Positions 19,581 to 29,090 of a stretch of DNA of 64,000 nt are shown here, piece after piece. Numbering within the stretch: position 1 is the stretch's first letter; every line of letters starts with the position of its first letter. Made by a program: the position numbers and the translations under genes. Source of the stretch: Halostella salina (GTDB lineage Archaea > Halobacteriota > Halobacteria > Halobacteriales > Natronoarchaeaceae); the NCBI RefSeq assembly GCF_003675855.1, contig NZ_RCIH01000002.1, forward strand, positions 443,654 through 507,653, given 5' to 3'. The notes below the pieces were generated by a model that saw nothing but the letters and a program-made list of their open reading frames with translations, was not told the origin of the DNA and made no database searches.

Positions 19581-19601
19581 TGCAGAAGGTCAGCAAAAAA
19601 G

Positions 19602-19805
19602 TCACTTGTCGTTGGCCAACTCGTAGAGTCCGGTGTTGACCTTCTCCACGAGACCGGCGAGTCGCAGCTCCTTCAGATGGTGCTGGACGGCGTGCTTGCT
19701 GTCGATGCTGGTGTTCTCCTTGATGTGGTTCGGCGTCGCTCGGCCTTCTCGAAGGACTTCGATCACTTCTTCCTGTGTCGGAGTGGGTTTCGGTTCCGCA
19801 CTCAT
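19602..19805 (-). CDS. small winged-helix regulator
   Basis: A 67-residue winged helix: EEVIEVLREGRATPNHIKEN, a recognition helix in SKHAVQHHLKELRLAGLVEK, and a one-strand wing (VNTGLYEL). This is the minimal MarR/ArsR-like type common on haloarchaeal elements. An 11-bp near-palindrome (CCACTTAGTGG, 19831-19841) sits just upstream of the TATA-like sequence, suggesting autoregulation. It is divergent from the long leader region of the small-gene array (from 19885), so it could be the array's switch (inference). Confidence 0.75.
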   Translation of the reverse strand: MSAEPKPTPTQEEVIEVLREGRATPNHIKENTSIDSKHAVQHHLKELRLAGLVEKVNTGLYELANDK

Positions 19806-19822
19806 ATACGTGTAGTGGTACG

Positions 19823-19884
19823 TTATAGTGCCACTTAGTGGTTCTGAGTATCCGACTACAAACGACCTCTAACACCCACTTAGT
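19823..19884 (-). promoter_or_regulatory. TATA box and CCACTTAGT operator sites of the 19602 regulator
   Basis: The minus-strand CTATAA (19823-19828) is a TATA candidate about 21 nt before the start. CCACTTAGTGG (19831-19841) is a near-perfect palindrome abutting it; a half-site CCACTTAGT recurs at 19876-19884, exactly 45 bp away. The two sites lie between the regulator gene and the array leader. Confidence 0.5.
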
Positions 19885-20321
19885 ACGTTTGCTTTACTTT
19901 GTGGTGCTACCCCGTAACCCTTTAGTGTCAAACAGGGCAAGTATAGGCTGAACAGAAGAAGAGAGCAAACGAGGTGACACAGAAAATGGGACTCGGATGT
20001 TTTGGAGGTGATTCGACGCAATCCAAGCCAACGATGGAATGAGCCAAGGAGCGCCGTAGTACTCGCACGGCGTCCGTGGACGTGGCCGAAGCCCACATCT
20101 GACACGGACACGACGACGGGGAACAGCCCTCGTCTCTCCCGGTGAAAATCGGGTGCTTCGAGGGTTAAGGGCCTACAAGGCCGACTGGAACGGCGCTGGA
20201 CGGCACAGTTCCCGTATGGCCCTCGCGGGAAGCAAGCACAGAACGCGCGTGGGAGAGTCGTGGCCGACCCGGCGAGCCCACGTGCGCTTGTTGGTGTTTT
20301 CATTCTTGACCCGGGCGTCAA
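19885..20321 (+). other. gene-free, hairpin-rich leader region before the small-gene array
   Basis: More than 430 nt without a coding frame. A TATA-like AGTATAGG (19939-19946) could start a rightward transcript. Downstream, several local hairpins can be drawn: CGCCGT/ACGGCG near 20052-20072, GTCCGTG/CACGGAC near 20072-20108 enclosing GTGG/CCAC, CCCG/CGGG near 20138-20153, and GGCC-TACAA-GGCC near 20170-20182. A degenerate array leader motif with GGAGGTGAT is included at 19988-20012. This may be a structured non-coding RNA or a long 5' leader; I recognise no known RNA family. Confidence 0.4.
19988..20012 (+). repeat. array leader motif, copy 0 (no gene follows)
   Basis: GGGACTCGGATGTTTTGGAGGTGAT matches the distal part (GACTCGG...TTCTGGAGGTGAT) of the leaders before the array genes. 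The only nearby ATG (Met-Glu-stop near 20032) does not open a gene, so this copy is an orphan. Confidence 0.6.
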
Positions 20322-20442
20322 GCCGCGGGAGACCGCGTCTGGTGACCGTCCCCTCGAGGGGACGCGGGGTTCGAGTCCCCGGCGGTCAGTACGACTTGGA
20401 CGTTCTGGAGGTGATTCGGAAGGCAACCACTATCTGCAAACT
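20322..20442 (+). repeat. tRNA-like array leader, copy 1
   Basis: Stem strand GCCGC (20322-20326); hairpin GTCCCC-TCGA-GGGGAC (20348-20363); T-arm-like hairpin CGGGG-TTCGAGT-CCCCG with a canonical 7-nt T-loop (20365-20381); closing strand GCGGT (20382-20386). TGACC (20343-20347) can also pair with GGTCA (20384-20388). Then GGAGGTGAT at 20407-20415, 27 nt before the ATG at 20443. The stems differ from those of copies 4 and 5 yet stay fully paired. Confidence 0.7.
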
Positions 20443-20940
20443 ATGACAGTCAACATCCGCACGAACGAGTTCGGTGACGTCGTCGTCGTGACGAGAGACA
20501 AGTATGGAAACGGAAACAAATACAAGTTCCACAAACTTTTCGATGAGGAGGATGCCGTCGCGCCGAAACCTTCGGAAAAGGTGACCCACACGGTGCGAGA
20601 GGCACTTGAGGACGTGGGATACACGGTGTACGGGGAAGATGACGTGAACTACTGTATCTATGATGGCTTCTACATCAAAACGACCCGCGTCTACAGGAGC
20701 GAACCGCCCGCAGTCCTCAAGACGACGTGGCATCGTCCCGATCTACTCGATGGCATCTTCGTTGAAGCAATCGAGGCTCACGGCGTCGAGACATACGCTT
20801 TCAAGAACACCGACGATGGCCTGATGTACGTGGGCGGCGACACATCAAGACCGCACCGCGAGAAGGACATCAGCGAGGTTCCCCACGAGATCGTCGAGAG
20901 GTTGGAGGACGAGGGCTTCGAATTTCACCGAGACGGGTGA
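20443..20940 (+). CDS. array gene A, hypothetical protein
   Basis: A 165-residue protein. The N-terminus is beta-rich (MTVNIRTNEFGDVVVVTRDK, then NKYKFHKLFDEED), followed by a VREALEDVGYTVYGEDDV segment, a Tyr/Lys-rich stretch (YCIYDGFYIKTTRVY) and an EVPHEIVERLEDEGFEF end. No motif or family is recognised. The ATG at 20443 is favoured because all array genes start with the pattern CACTA...CAAACTATG. It is the first gene of a rightward series without individual TATA boxes. Confidence 0.65.
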   Translation: MTVNIRTNEFGDVVVVTRDKYGNGNKYKFHKLFDEEDAVAPKPSEKVTHTVREALEDVGYTVYGEDDVNYCIYDGFYIKTTRVYRSEPPAVLKTTWHRPDLLDGIFVEAIEAHGVETYAFKNTDDGLMYVGGDTSRPHREKDISEVPHEIVERLEDEGFEFHRDG

Positions 20941-20968
20941 GGTGTGGACGCAACTGAGCCTCGATCCA

Positions 20969-21091
20969 GCCGCGTGATGTAGACTCGCCTTACAGGCGGG
21001 ATGCGACCTCGACTCGACTGTTCTACGGCGACTCTGAAGGTGATTCTCGACACTCGACAGCCAGCGTTCAATTTTCCTCACAACTCAAACT
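20969..21091 (+). repeat. tRNA-like array leader, copy 2 (degenerate T-arm)
   Basis: CCAGCCGCG (GCCGC at 20969-20973) as in copies 4 and 5; hairpin CGCCT-TAC-AGGCG (20986-20998); then GCGACCTCGACTCGACTG in place of a clean T-arm, and GAAGGTGAT (21036-21044) with one change from the consensus. The ATG follows after 47 nt. The shared distal block TGTTCTACGGCGACT is close to that of copy 3. Confidence 0.6.
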
Positions 21092-21391
21092 ATGCCAGAC
21101 AGCGCTGAAGATATGTATGCCACTCTGAACGAGGCAAGCGAGGGAAATGTCGTTGAACTGGACTTCCTGAACCAGCACGGTGAGAAAGATGGAGCGGCGG
21201 TTCTGCGCATCGACGAGAAAGTACAAGAGTTCGGTGACGGCGGAGGCAAGATTATCTGCCGGAACGACGTTGACGATAGAGTCCACGTGATCCTTGAAAA
21301 CGTGGACTATGCAGCAGATGGCCCGCTATTCGTCGAGGAAAAAGATGCCAGATTTTGGTCAAGAGCAGAGGTTGACTGCATCTACGACTGA
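21092..21391 (+). CDS. array gene B, hypothetical protein
   Basis: A 99-residue acidic protein. The segment SEGNVVELDFLNQHGEKDGA, followed by strands (AVLRID, KIICRND) and a VHVILENVDYAADGPLFVEE region, suggests a small beta barrel. The GN/GD-x-V-x-L pattern followed by a HGE turn also occurs in array gene E (22788) and loosely in gene C (21495), so these genes may be distant paralogues. The function is unknown. Confidence 0.6.
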   Translation: MPDSAEDMYATLNEASEGNVVELDFLNQHGEKDGAAVLRIDEKVQEFGDGGGKIICRNDVDDRVHVILENVDYAADGPLFVEEKDARFWSRAEVDCIYD

Positions 21392-21416
21392 CCGAACGAT
21401 TGCCTGCTGAACGCTT

Positions 21417-21494
21417 GACTCGGTTCACAACCGGGAGCGGGCCTCACGACTCGGCTGTTCTGCGGCGACTGGAGGTGATAACCACTACTCAACT
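21417..21494 (+). repeat. array leader, copy 3
   Basis: A GACTCGGTTCACAACCGGGAG hairpin region (CTC.GGTT/AACC.GGGAG) replaces the first hairpin; then GCGGGCCTCACGACTCGG, CTGTTCTGCGGCGACT and GGAGGTGAT (21471-21479), 15 nt before the ATG. The distal block is nearly identical to copy 2, while the T-arm is not clean. Confidence 0.55.
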
Positions 21495-21983
21495 ATGTCC
21501 GACAACAACATCGACATCGAGATCGAGAACAGTATCCAACCGACGCTGCTCGAAGAAGGCGACGAGATTCGCATCGAGAGCATACCCACCGACGAGGAAG
21601 TCGTGACGACGGTGAGCGGCGTTGAACACGCCCGCGACGAGCAGAAGCTCACCACCGTCCACCTCGAAGATATCGACCGGCGGCTGTTCCACGATGATGA
21701 GTGGCGGTGCGAACACGTCGAGTGCCGCGTTCGGCGCACCGGTCTGCCAACCACTGAGGAAATCATCGAATCCCTGAAGAGCAGCGAGCGACAGCCGGAT
21801 GAAGCCGACGAGTACGTCGCCATCGAGGGCGACATAGAAGCCTATCACGAGGCCGCCGACGGCCGCGTGATTCTGCGCTACGTCCTGCAGATGGGTTGGG
21901 ATATGGACGGCACCCACGAGGGCGAGATGCTCGCCGACGAGGAGGTGCAGGAGATGACGCCCCACGACGTGACCGGCGATTGA
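21495..21983 (+). CDS. array gene C, hypothetical protein
   Basis: A 162-residue very acidic protein starting MSDNN, as gene E does. Residues about 18-80 (EEGDEIRIESIPTDEEV, EDIDRRLFHDDEWRCEHVE) look like a small beta domain aligned with the N-terminus of gene E (DGDVLHLENKHGEEEEVL, NDQRLFYRDGGEKW). Residues 100-160 have a DIEAYHEAADGRVILRYVL region and an acidic tail. The family is unknown. Confidence 0.6.
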   Translation: MSDNNIDIEIENSIQPTLLEEGDEIRIESIPTDEEVVTTVSGVEHARDEQKLTTVHLEDIDRRLFHDDEWRCEHVECRVRRTGLPTTEEIIESLKSSERQPDEADEYVAIEGDIEAYHEAADGRVILRYVLQMGWDMDGTHEGEMLADEEVQEMTPHDVTGD

Positions 21984-22010
21984 GAATCACGACCGCTTTC
22001 TCACAGGCCA

Positions 22011-22112
22011 GCCGCGCTCGGCGCCACCCTTGCGGGTGCGGCGGTTCGACTCCGCCGGCGGCCCTCGTTGGTTCTGGAGGTGATTTGCAGGCAATAAAGC
22101 ACTATTCCAATT
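22011..22112 (+). repeat. tRNA-like array leader, copy 4
   Basis: GCCGC (22011-22015); hairpin CACCC-TTGC-GGGTG (22025-22038); T-arm-like hairpin CGGCGG-TTCGACT-CCGCCG (22039-22057); closing GCGGC (22058-22062); GGAGGTGAT (22076-22084), 28 nt before the ATG. All three stems are perfect Watson-Crick. Confidence 0.7.
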
Positions 22113-22412
22113 ATGTCCGACACAGACACCATCGATAGTTTGGAACAGCTCGCAAACGAGTCTCGGGTGGAGACCTTCGACGCCACGCTGAACACCGTGC
22201 AGAACGCGCTGGAGATAGACGGCAACCGAATCAACCTCGGCCTCTGCATCGACTACGAGGAGCACTTCGGCGGCGATGTCCGGTACTACACGTACCGGTG
22301 CGGGCCGTACGAAGTCGAGGTCAAGCGCGACGTGCGGAAGCAAGGTGGAACGAAGATCGCCGTCGAAGTGACCGACACGCGAACCGCCGACGTGGCGGGT
22401 GAGACGATATGA
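22113..22412 (+). CDS. array gene D1, hypothetical protein
   Basis: A 99-residue protein: a helical acidic N-terminus (DSLEQLANESRVETFDATLN) and a beta-rich second half (INLGLCIDYEEHFGG, YYTYRCGPYEVEVKRDV, KIAVEVTDTRTADV). The last four bases overlap the next gene (ATGA), so D1 and D2 form one translational unit behind leader copy 4. No known family. Confidence 0.6.
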   Translation: MSDTDTIDSLEQLANESRVETFDATLNTVQNALEIDGNRINLGLCIDYEEHFGGDVRYYTYRCGPYEVEVKRDVRKQGGTKIAVEVTDTRTADVAGETI

Positions 22413-22654
22413 ACGAGGAGAAACGCACCGAGATGGAGAACTACGATCTCGATCCCACCCACGTGATCGTGGTAGTCAGGGAGGGTGGCCCAGAAGTCGC
22501 GCTCGTCACCGTCGAGGCAGACGTGTTCCGCCACGCGATGAGTGAGGCGGAGGAGCGCATCGAGGAGGAGTATGATGGGACGTGGTACGCTGAAGGCCGC
22601 CTCGACGACTATCTCGCCCGCGCGGAGAGCCGCGACATCTCGATTCTCCGCTGA
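22409..22654 (+). CDS. array gene D2, hypothetical protein
   Basis: An 81-residue acidic protein: a beta strand region (THVIVVVREGGPEVALVTVE) followed by a long helix (FRHAMSEAEERIEEEYDG) and a basic-acidic C-terminus. Its start overlaps the D1 stop. Nothing catalytic is visible. The leader of gene E begins 24 nt after its stop. Confidence 0.6.
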   Translation: MNEEKRTEMENYDLDPTHVIVVVREGGPEVALVTVEADVFRHAMSEAEERIEEEYDGTWYAEGRLDDYLARAESRDISILR

Positions 22655-22678
22655 ACTTCCGACCGCCCTCACGAGCCA

Positions 22679-22787
22679 GCCGCGCTCGGCGGCCACCACA
22701 TCGTGTGGTGCTCGGGTTCGACTCCCGAGGCGGCCCTTCGACTCGGTTGTCTGCAAGACGTTCTGGAGGTGATACACTACCGAAACT
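22679..22787 (+). repeat. tRNA-like array leader, copy 5
   Basis: GCCGC (22679-22683); hairpin CACCACA-TCG-TGTGGTG (22694-22710); T-arm-like hairpin CTCGGG-TTCGACT-CCCGAG (22711-22729); closing GCGGC (22730-22734); then GACTCGG and a small GTCT-GCA-AGAC hairpin; GGAGGTGAT (22765-22773), 14 nt before the ATG at 22788. Confidence 0.7.
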
Positions 22788-23348
22788 ATGTCCGACAACA
22801 ACAGCAACAGCACGGACAGCATCGACATCGAAGACATCGCTGACGGCGACGTGCTTCATCTAGAGAACAAGCACGGAGAGGAGGAGGAAGTTCTCGAAGT
22901 CGAACACGTTGGTCACGCGATGGTGTGGCTCGTCAACGACCAGCGGCTGTTCTACCGCGATGGTGGAGAGAAGTGGACGTACGAGGGCACCCCAGCCCGC
23001 GTCGAGTTCTCGTCGGCAGCGACATCCCGAGAGCAGGCGTTCGCCGCCGCCCGAGAGATTCACACCGCGCTCCACGATGGGGCACGCCCGGAGCGGGCCG
23101 TCGACAAGGCCATCGACGCGGTCGAAGACGACAACGAGGCAGACGTGCTGGATACCGAGCGCGTCAACTCGTCCTCGTGGCGGGTCGAGTGGGGACACTC
23201 GTGGGAAACCGCTCTGACGATGGATCGCACCGGCAACTGCTGGACGGTCAAGGTCATCGTCGACGCGGAGACCGTGGCATCTGCCGATCACAACGACGAC
23301 CCCGCTCCCACTCAGCTCGCTGGCGAATTGCCGGCTGATAGTCGATGA
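22788..23348 (+). CDS. array gene E, hypothetical protein
   Basis: A 186-residue acidic protein with a Ser/Asn-rich start (MSDNNSNSTDS), a small beta domain (GDVLHLENKHGEEEEVLEVE, then VWLVNDQRLFYRDG) related to array gene C, a helical middle (TSREQAFAAAREIHTAL, ERAVDKAIDAVE) and a C-terminal strand domain with Trp residues (WRVEWGHSWETALTMDR, CWTVKVIVDAE). It heads a chain of four genes with overlapping stops and starts (23345, 23527, 23757). The function is unknown. Confidence 0.65.
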   Translation: MSDNNSNSTDSIDIEDIADGDVLHLENKHGEEEEVLEVEHVGHAMVWLVNDQRLFYRDGGEKWTYEGTPARVEFSSAATSREQAFAAAREIHTALHDGARPERAVDKAIDAVEDDNEADVLDTERVNSSSWRVEWGHSWETALTMDRTGNCWTVKVIVDAETVASADHNDDPAPTQLAGELPADSR

Positions 23349-23530
23349 CAGTGGAGTACCTGTGCCCGAAGTGTCGCACCCGGGCCGTCACGGGTGACGT
23401 GCATCGGTACGGGTGTGAGAGTTGTGGTGGAACGTGGGACAGTCTGAGCGATTTGGCGGAAACGGAACCGCGGATCGACTACGGGCAACTCACCCTCTCC
23501 TCGGTAACCGATCCGGGGGATGAGTCGTGA
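23345..23530 (+). CDS. zinc-ribbon protein
   Basis: A 61-residue protein with two CxxC knuckles (CPKC at residues 7-10 and CESC at about 24-27) separated by 13 residues, typical of a zinc ribbon, then an acidic tail. It overlaps gene E by 4 nt (ATGA) and the next gene by 4 nt. Such mini zinc-ribbon proteins are common in haloarchaea and their viruses and usually mediate protein or nucleic-acid contacts. Confidence 0.65.
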   Translation: MTVEYLCPKCRTRAVTGDVHRYGCESCGGTWDSLSDLAETEPRIDYGQLTLSSVTDPGDES

Positions 23531-23760
23531 TTGCAATCTACCGTGTTGAGGTGCGCCGTCACGGCGTCACGGAGTTTGAAGACCGATGCACCACCCGTGA
23601 GACGGCAGAGGGGATTGGAGAGCGGTTCGTTGAGGCTTGCGACGATCCGAGCTGGCAGTACGATGTGACGGTGGAGACGGTGCAAGTGGCTGAGAGCGTT
23701 GAGGAATGTGAAGAGATGATCGAGACGATCTCACACACCAGTGTGAGTGATGCAGATTGA
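23527..23760 (+). CDS. hypothetical protein in coupled chain
   Basis: A 77-residue protein (GTG start in a GTGA overlap). One alpha/beta unit: IAIYRVEVRRHGVTEFEDR, then a helix (TRETAEGIGERFVEA) and a strand-helix end (YDVTVETVQVAESVEECEEM). The pattern resembles small WGR/DUF-like beta-alpha-beta proteins, but I cannot assign a family. Confidence 0.55.
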   Translation: MIAIYRVEVRRHGVTEFEDRCTTRETAEGIGERFVEACDDPSWQYDVTVETVQVAESVEECEEMIETISHTSVSDAD

Positions 23761-24029
23761 CCTTTGAGGAGACGTGGGTTGAGGTGGAGAGCGAAGACCG
23801 GTTGATTGTGAAGACGAACCCCAGACATCAGAGCGTGCATCGCTACGAGTTCCATCGCAAGGGTGACGCGTGGGTGCCGGATGGCGTTGTGACGGGGCAC
23901 GCGCTGGAGTACGCGAGAAACCACGTCGATGAGCCGGTTTTGGATAGACGGCTGGCGGACGGTCAACTACAGCTCACTGACTTCTCGGAGACCGTGGCAG
24001 ACCGTTCGGCAGTTCACGCCGTCGCATAG
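23757..24029 (+). CDS. hypothetical protein, last of the coupled chain
   Basis: A 90-residue protein with a TTG start overlapping the preceding stop (TTGA), matching the ATGA and GTGA couplings upstream. Strands TWVEVESEDRLIVKTN and VHRYEFHRKGDAWVPDG, then a helix (GHALEYARNHV) and an acidic end. TTG starts are rare, so the exact N-terminus is uncertain. It ends the rightward series that began at 20443. Confidence 0.5.
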   Translation: MTFEETWVEVESEDRLIVKTNPRHQSVHRYEFHRKGDAWVPDGVVTGHALEYARNHVDEPVLDRRLADGQLQLTDFSETVADRSAVHAVA

Positions 24030-27560: not shown

Positions 27561-29090
27561 CTACTCGCCGCGGAGTTCGCGGGCTCCGGGGTAATGGTCT
27601 GTGTGTTCTTCGAAGATGTCGGCGTAGTTCTCGGCGAGCCATTCGATGTCTTCTTCGTCGATAGGTTCTGCGTCTTCAAGGATGTCTTCGCTGGCCCCGA
27701 GGTCTTCGAGTGAGACTGGTAGTGGGTCGATGGTGGTGTGCGTGCCTGCTGATATCAATACGCCGACTGCGTGATCGTAGTACCCCGGTGGCAACTGGGA
27801 GAGACTTCCGGGAGGAATTTCGTCGTCGTACAGTTCGCGCACCATATCGTCTTCATCGGTTGCTTTGCGGTAGATGCGCCACCACCGCGGGCGCTCGTCG
27901 TCTTGTCGGAGCGAACATTCCGGACAGTATTTGGCTTCGGCGCTGACCACCGTGCCACACCGGGGGCATTCGTGCTGTTCGACGGTATCGCCGCCTTCTG
28001 CGGGTTCGAATCCGTGCTTTCTGAGAATCCGTTCCGCCTCGTCTTCCTCGGTGACGTGTTCATACCTCGAGTGCATCGGAGTGCCTTCTTCCCAGTCGAG
28101 GATTTGTTCGATGTCGTCCTTGTCGTACTTCTCGGAGGCCCGCATCTCGCTCGCCCTACCGTGTTTGAATTTGTGCGGAGAGATGAGGTCGGGGTCAAGA
28201 CCGTCTGTGCGGCGGGAGATGCGGTTCATCTGGGTGCGGATGCTGTGTGGGTGTAGGTGTTCGGATGGGTCGTCTTGGCTCCGTGTAGGGCAGAACAGGG
28301 GTGCGTCGGGGTCGTCGGCCAGCGGGTGTTCGGAGAGCCATCCTTCGAGATATCCCCTGCTGAAGGTGATCGGTTTCGCGGAGAGGTCTGCCCCTTTTAG
28401 CCCCACGACGTTGGTGGGGAGTTGGATCACGCCGTAGCTGTCTCCCTTCGGCATCCAGTGCTTGACTTTGAGCGAGCACATCGCGGTCACTCGATTTCCG
28501 GTCTCCCAGAGTACGGTGAATAGGGCTTTGTCGCGGGCGGATTCCCCTTCGATCAATAGCATCAGGTCTTCACGTGTGGGTACGGTGTCGACGTCGACAG
28601 CGACGTTTGATTGGCCGACTTGAGGGTAGTGGATTTTCTTCGCCTCGTCTTCCTTCGCGTGAGCGAGGAAGTGATTGCGGAGCGACAGGCAGTAGTCCCG
28701 TTCGGTTGCTTGGCCGAGTTCGCGGTCGATGGAGAGATCGGCTATGAATTCCGTTGCCATTTCCCCGTCGAGGTCGAGGAGGCGGTCTGGATACTTGTCG
28801 CGGTCGGATTCGACGGCGGGCCACGTGATTCCGTCGTATTCAGCTGCGTCCAGTCCCTGTATTTCGCCCGCAAGGATGCGGAGGTTCCGGGCGTTGTTCT
28901 GGATAGTCCGTGGTTCCCAGCGTGATTTGGTCTGTTGGTGGGGTTTTGGGCTGGGAATGTTGCCGCGTTCCCCTTTCCGTATGGTCTTCAGAATCTCGTT
29001 CTTATTCGGCTCTCGCACGGTGAGCCGTATCCGTTCCTTCTCCCGTTCGGCGTAGCGTTCGACGCGGCCGGGGTCGCTTCCGTCCGGCAT
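27561..29090 (-). CDS. tyrosine recombinase/integrase with C-terminal zinc ribbon
   Basis: A 509-residue site-specific recombinase. SAM-like core-binding domain about 60-155; catalytic domain about 170-350 with Arg200 (ETGNRVTAM), box II PHKFKHGRASEM (His306 and, three residues later, Lys309 where Arg is usual; Arg312 follows) and nucleophile Tyr343 (MHSRYEHVT). A zinc ribbon (CPRC at 374-377, CPEC at 388-391) and about 110 acidic residues follow. Haloarchaeal XerC/D-like integrases with such tails occur at ends of integrated elements. It is the last gene of the low-G+C block, which supports a role in integrating this element. Confidence 0.9.
   Translation of the reverse strand: MPDGSDPGRVERYAEREKERIRLTVREPNKNEILKTIRKGERGNIPSPKPHQQTKSRWEPRTIQNNARNLRILAGEIQGLDAAEYDGITWPAVESDRDKYPDRLLDLDGEMATEFIADLSIDRELGQATERDYCLSLRNHFLAHAKEDEAKKIHYPQVGQSNVAVDVDTVPTREDLMLLIEGESARDKALFTVLWETGNRVTAMCSLKVKHWMPKGDSYGVIQLPTNVVGLKGADLSAKPITFSRGYLEGWLSEHPLADDPDAPLFCPTRSQDDPSEHLHPHSIRTQMNRISRRTDGLDPDLISPHKFKHGRASEMRASEKYDKDDIEQILDWEEGTPMHSRYEHVTEEDEAERILRKHGFEPAEGGDTVEQHECPRCGTVVSAEAKYCPECSLRQDDERPRWWRIYRKATDEDDMVRELYDDEIPPGSLSQLPPGYYDHAVGVLISAGTHTTIDPLPVSLEDLGASEDILEDAEPIDEEDIEWLAENYADIFEEHTDHYPGARELRGE

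Follow-up and report, generated by a model that had tools for sequence, protein, structure and literature searches.

In mitochondria, polycistronic transcripts are punctuated by tRNAs between protein genes. Archaea have t-elements: in Haloferax, a tRNA-like structure located 5' of the 5S rRNA is processed by tRNase Z, and such elements, which are substrates of both RNase P and tRNase Z, have been put to use in the same genus for crRNA release (PMC3296008, PMC4326828, PMC4946936). On the account given in PMC3296008 and PMC4326828, the pre-5S t-elements of Haloferax volcanii were the subject of Hoelzle et al. (2008, 2012). In the literature that we found, archaeal t-elements appear solely in connection with 5S rRNA or as parts for engineering, and the open-access literature searched held no description of such arrays in mRNA, which is weak evidence of novelty. 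In mammals, a related layout occurs in mascRNA, which releases the 3' end of MALAT1 (PMC4919922), while the genes of cluster K mycobacteriophages are preceded by start-associated sequences and inverted repeats (PMC3203893).

The window, by which we mean the whole 64-kb stretch of DNA analysed here, lies on contig C2 of a 3.7-Mb haloarchaeal genome (G000). Part of it has a lower GC content (mostly 0.55-0.62, vs ~0.70 outside, with a GC step at ~29 kb) and holds both a SprT-like protease gene and a winged-helix regulator; this stretch is most likely an integrated mobile element. G006, which belongs to another genus of the same family, carries a syntenic element (locus L136), and its copy of the regulator is 98.5% identical (tblastn to L136). 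From the regulator an array of small, mostly acidic genes without assigned function runs rightwards, and most of array genes 6-9 have homologues in L136. The features concerned are as follows.

19602..19805, minus strand: winged-helix regulator, transcribed away from the array (match to PHROG 2440, transcriptional regulator, E 4e-8)
19806..20003, plus strand: conserved intergenic stretch, with shorter matches in G348, G297 and G156
20004..20042, plus strand: GGAGGTGAT, then the three-codon frame ATG-GAA-TGA (20034-20042)
20036..20310, plus strand: predicted large structured RNA, ~270 nt, lacking a long ORF and opening the array
20443..20940, plus strand: array gene 1, an ORF with no Pfam family above cut-off
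21092..21391, plus strand: array gene 2, found among 394 genomes in G000 and G006 only
21495..21983, plus strand: array gene 3, whose near-identical G006 gene has a different upstream leader
22113-22412 and 22409-22654, plus strand: array genes 4 and 5, ORFs meeting in an ATGA overlap, with no element between
22788-23348, 23345-23530, 23527-23760 and 23757-24029, plus strand: array genes 6-9, each overlapping the next, with no elements between
27561..29090, minus strand: tyrosine recombinase with zinc ribbon (Pfam Phage_integrase, E 1e-10), close to the element's right-hand GC boundary

The conserved stretch at 19806..20003 is probably the promoter of the array, and positions 19590-20040 share 95% identity with G006. 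The segment at 20036..20310 has a fold z of -3.9, and its G006 homologue (L136 9466-9735) one of -5.3; it matched no Rfam family and is predicted to be a structured non-coding RNA. The ATG-GAA-TGA frame after the full GGAGGTGAT leader is identical in G006 (L136 9437-9470), where it also lies just 5' of the ~270-nt structured RNA.

A sequence-only reading of this DNA had proposed that one and the same fold stands before each gene or pair of genes. As far as 22788, a leader element is indeed present wherever consecutive genes do not overlap, and within the window elements were found only at non-overlapping junctions, the four junctions without one (22409, 23345, 23527 and 23757) being start/stop overlaps; two of the elements (20969-21007 and 21402-21442), however, fold differently from the rest. 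We refer to the two folds as type I and type II. Scores are from covariance models, R1 having been built from five mobile-element leaders, with no pre-5S locus in training, and R2 being the type II model.

20331-20387, plus strand: W1, type I, with GGAGGTGAT at 20407-20415 (R1, 46 bits, training member)
20969-21007, plus strand: W2, type II, with GAAGGTGAT at 21036-21044 (R2, 34 bits, training member; covariation)
21402-21442, plus strand: W3, type II, with GGAGGTGAT at 21471-21479 (R2, 44 bits, training member; covariation)
22010-22063, plus strand: W4, type I, with GGAGGTGAT at 22076-22084 (R1, 30.8 bits, training member)
22678-22735, plus strand: W5, type I, with GGAGGTGAT at 22765-22773 (R1, 40.3 bits, training member)

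Type I consists of an acceptor stem, a short D-like arm, an anticodon-less hairpin with a loop of 3-5 nt, and a T arm with the loop TTCGA[CG]T. In W1 the acceptor is formed by GACCGC and GCGGTC, so that this copy, reported earlier as beginning at 20322, exists but begins at 20331. The leaders had also been described as having neither anticodon nor D arm; the hairpin loops agree with the former, but W1 has a D-like arm (GTC-TGGT-GAC, which is GGC-TGGT-GCC in its G006 homologue). The T arms of W4 (GGCGG-TTCGACT-CCGCC) and W5 (TCGGG-TTCGACT-CCCGA) are, with that of W1, the sole three perfect T arms (TTCRANY loop) in the window, and all three lie on the genes' strand; dinucleotide shuffles gave an expectation of 0.023 for the 3.6-kb region and 0.5 for each strand of the window. 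Single-sequence folding z-scores of the leaders were unremarkable (-0.8 to -2.1), and the evidence for the leaders is the T-loop motif together with covariation, not raw stability. ARAGORN called no tRNA in the window or in L136, and the complete cloverleaf with 7-nt anticodon loop of a functional tRNA is absent from the leaders. A remnant of a tRNA attachment site was considered and rejected, as no tRNA was called and the elements recur between genes.

Type II comprises a 7-bp acceptor, a short linker starting with GA, and a 6-bp hairpin. The acceptor has one mismatch in W2, and W3 has the acceptor GCCTGCT/AGCGGGC and the hairpin CTCGGT/ACCGGG. The loops are UCACA rather than T loops, and the fold would resemble an acceptor/T minihelix minus the canonical loop. 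An acceptor-like stem stacked directly on a canonical-loop T arm, as in t-elements, was found in type I and not in type II, and R2 matched no pre-5S element. Type II may be cut in the same way as type I, which is less certain because its loop is not canonical.

With the t-elements, the window copies share an acceptor stem, a T arm with a TTCGANY loop, the lack of an anticodon, and a position directly 5' of the RNA that is set free, all of them standing between non-overlapping genes. They differ in occurring between mobile-element protein genes, several per operon, and type I also has a D-like arm and an additional hairpin and is followed by a Shine-Dalgarno-like motif; cleavage here is only predicted. 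With mascRNA/menRNA (RF01684) they share an acceptor, a mini D arm, an anticodon-less hairpin and a T arm, after a long non-coding RNA. W1 (26 bits) and an element in G348 (18.5 bits, discussed later) both had mascRNA as their best Rfam match, far below the RF01684 gathering threshold of 42.5 bits; mascRNA is mammalian, with no evidence of common descent, and in the window the downstream products are messages. Mitochondrial punctuation also separates the protein genes of a polycistron by tRNA-shaped units, but mitochondria use functional tRNAs, whereas the window elements have no anticodon loop. The SAS/ESAS of cluster K mycobacteriophages likewise place a recurring motif that contains a Shine-Dalgarno sequence ahead of phage genes, with inverted repeats upstream of it, but these are not tRNA-like, being conserved DNA inverted repeats as opposed to the covarying stems of the window. 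The leaders are real, not due to chance, and not without precedent: the layout, for which the sequence-only reading knew of no described family, is shared by the Haloferax pre-5S t-elements and by mascRNA.

Processing by RNase P or tRNase Z had been one of several options raised for these leaders and is now the best explanation. We consider it likely, from the fold, its covariation, its placement and the recognition of pre-5S elements by R1, that they are t-elements, i.e., tRNA mimics that punctuate one mobile-element operon and are cut by tRNase Z and/or RNase P. The operon would be transcribed from the conserved promoter as a polycistron in which each element folds, and host tRNase Z would then cut immediately 3' of each acceptor stem, with a possible second cut by RNase P on its 5' side. 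In this way every message, or every group of overlapping genes, would gain its own 5' end, a short distance upstream of a Shine-Dalgarno-like motif and start codon, with a presumed effect on expression; overlapping genes, possibly translationally coupled, would need no element. A cut at W1 would also free the 3' end of the ~270-nt structured RNA, as mascRNA does for MALAT1.

All five elements are followed 12-30 nt downstream by GGAGGTGAT (GAAGGTGAT for W2), and GGAGGTGAT is complementary to the 3' end of 16S rRNA. The ATG comes 14-47 nt after the motif, giving an element-to-ATG span of 49-80 nt, motif included. Five of the eight GGAGGTGAT sites in the window are inside the array, against 0.42 expected across the whole window. 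The main rival explanation, cis-acting translational control, holds that ribosome access to GGAGGTGAT is adjusted by the leader fold, possibly with a bound protein, and that no cleavage takes place. It would account for a strong Shine-Dalgarno-like motif after every element, for two different folds at an equivalent position and for the unusual motif-to-ATG distances, and it has a parallel in the start-associated sequences and inverted repeats of cluster K mycobacteriophages (PMC3203893). We nevertheless judge it improbable: in most leaders the predicted accessibility of the motif is barely altered by the presence of the element, which also leaves simple occlusion of the motif unsupported; most t-elements that we found in other haloarchaea adjoin the start codon (2-28 nt) and have no GGAGGTGAT-type motif; and canonical T loops would be unnecessary for a regulator site. 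If the leaders are t-elements, those in the window probably do more than mark a 5' end, because 49-80 nt, including a Shine-Dalgarno-like motif, intervene.

The homologous array in G006 has six leaders, two of type I and four of type II, and its gene order differs from that in G000. Some G006 copies are imperfect: only two of the five T-stem pairs remain in G1, a single mismatch occurs in G6, and R2 missed G2, which is degenerate. Among 344 haloarchaeal genomes, a strict leader pattern (GGAGGTGAT-AACTATG) was found only in G000 and G006, and the window-type array with GGAGGTGAT is rare. A third lineage, G348 and G297, from two other families, was reached via the regulator-promoter stretch; there, a type I element with GGAGGTGAT separates the first array gene from the second, and this second gene is homologous to the first array gene of G006. 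A looser leader pattern gave mostly scattered chance matches, but two were this G348/G297 element.

Three copies with differing, fully paired stems and canonical T loops had been claimed from the window alone, a claim that was borne out and extended by covariation against G006 and the third lineage. In a type I alignment of W1, W4, W5, G1 and the G348 element, which was laid out by hand and leans towards structure, 15 of 20 pairs change on both sides and 95.6% of cells are paired; this level of covariation was reached by 0 of 500 shuffles, and sliding the partners lowers pairing to 43-58%. MAFFT alone misregistered the type I stems, and rows were padded with N to keep register, which favours structure. 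Between W1 and its G006 homologue, compensatory changes occur in the acceptor, D-like arm and hairpin, while the TGGT and TTCGA loop letters are unchanged. The type II alignment (five sequences, likewise laid out by hand and leaning towards structure) shows changes on both sides in 6 of 13 pairs, a pair count matched by 52 of 500 shuffles; its count of cells changed on both sides and its covariation score were matched by none of the 500. Pairing of cognate versus swapped strands points in the same direction as the covariation.

One segment, comprising a gene and its downstream tRNA-like element (window 21480-22067, L136 11630-12225), is ~99% identical across the two genera while its flanks differ, and the exchange boundaries fall within leaders. 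This unit looks like a recent cassette-like exchange between the two genera. Such boundaries, like the differing gene order, are what would be seen if the leaders were DNA recombination sites or hot spots bounding exchangeable gene cassettes, somewhat as in integrons, an option that the sequence-only reading had also named. Little else speaks for it, and we hold it to be quite unlikely: covariation that includes G-U pairs, among them a conserved U-G pair in five of five type II hairpins, points to RNA, the strand bias follows transcription, no cassette recombinase was identified, and a single exchange is explicable by ordinary homologous recombination in conserved leaders.

Independent support for the type I structure comes from pre-5S elements. 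R1 matched directly 5' of the 5S rRNA at 25 of 30 haloarchaeal loci (9/9 and 16/21 in two sets), including the host's own element (L193 1456-1498), which reads CACCGAC-linker-CGCGG-TTCGACT-CCGCG-A-GTCGGCG and ends at the 5S 5' end; type I is structurally similar to the known pre-5S t-elements. Against 137 haloarchaeal genomes, R1 gave both tRNA-length matches (70-75 nt) and shorter ones, often clustered 0.5-2.6 kb apart. We examined 20 regions, picked by match length and clustering rather than by genes, and ARAGORN called tRNAs in just two of them. An ORF starts within 120 nt downstream (mostly 2-28 nt) of 25 of the 36 matches scored, a set that omits two plain tRNA-Arg and in which two overlap doubtful ARAGORN calls; for comparison, the same holds for 5/36 on the opposite strand and for 15% of positions drawn at random. 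Over 42 R1 matches, in an alignment fitted to the model and including a few tRNAs, both sides change in 18 of 20 pairs, and such cells number 129 vs 42 when shuffled. The search thereby yielded what had been predicted of it, namely many more copies with compensatory changes upstream of ORFs. These results suggest that haloarchaea commonly have t-elements in front of protein genes, a use that is apparently widespread and little described.

Examples include L287, L288, L291 and L292, in which short t-elements (of the ACCCAC...GTGGGT type) lie 20-28 nt 5' of tandem camelysin-like/DUF1102 genes, whose products bear secretion-type leaders. In L290 (3061-4582, minus strand), three t-elements follow one another ahead of a C-5 cytosine methylase gene and small genes of unknown function; the ARAGORN call of a pyrrolysine tRNA at one of these elements is probably wrong.

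The full tRNA-like shape of the leaders, with D-like and T loops and no anticodon, would also suit free small RNAs acting in trans, e.g., as decoys for tRNA-binding proteins or for the anticodon nucleases of host defence, of which a mobile element would be a plausible user. This seems to us very unlikely, since similar elements stand in cellular genomes before genes for secreted proteins and before 5S rRNA, and a decoy has no need to recur at every non-overlapping junction. Returning to t-elements, we tentatively raise the possibility, more as a conjecture than an expectation, that haloarchaea and their mobile elements make general use of tRNA punctuation, with anticodon-less t-element arrays cutting operons into leaderless or short-leader messages, and that in this mobile-element family the elements have developed further, into complete tRNA mimics and minihelices linked to ribosome-binding motifs, the first one maturing a large non-coding RNA. 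If the elements are cut, many haloarchaeal protein operons, cellular as well as mobile, would be processed by tRNA maturation enzymes, and mRNA 5' ends and leaderless translation would be tied to tRNase Z.

Scans of IMG/VR for a T loop plus GGAGGTGAT returned mostly real tRNAs near ribosome-binding sites of other organisms, and the GGAGGTGAT-AACTATG pattern gave chance matches in viral and genome collections. Nothing was found by blastn of the array against phages and plasmids, or by scans of viral contigs with the array proteins and the ncRNA pattern, and chance accounts for the BLAST matches to the ncRNA region found in G015 and G100. One Halobaculum plasmid carries a gene homologous to that of G348, and no t-element was found there; on such a plasmid (NZ_CP058532.1, L266 2095-2220), the cmlA5 resistance label predicted for a 126-bp ORF is apparently an artefact of annotation. 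Finally, L263 (10539-10796, minus strand) holds three tandem repeats of a tRNA 3' end (GTTCAAATCTACCTCCC), resembling stacked integration sites.
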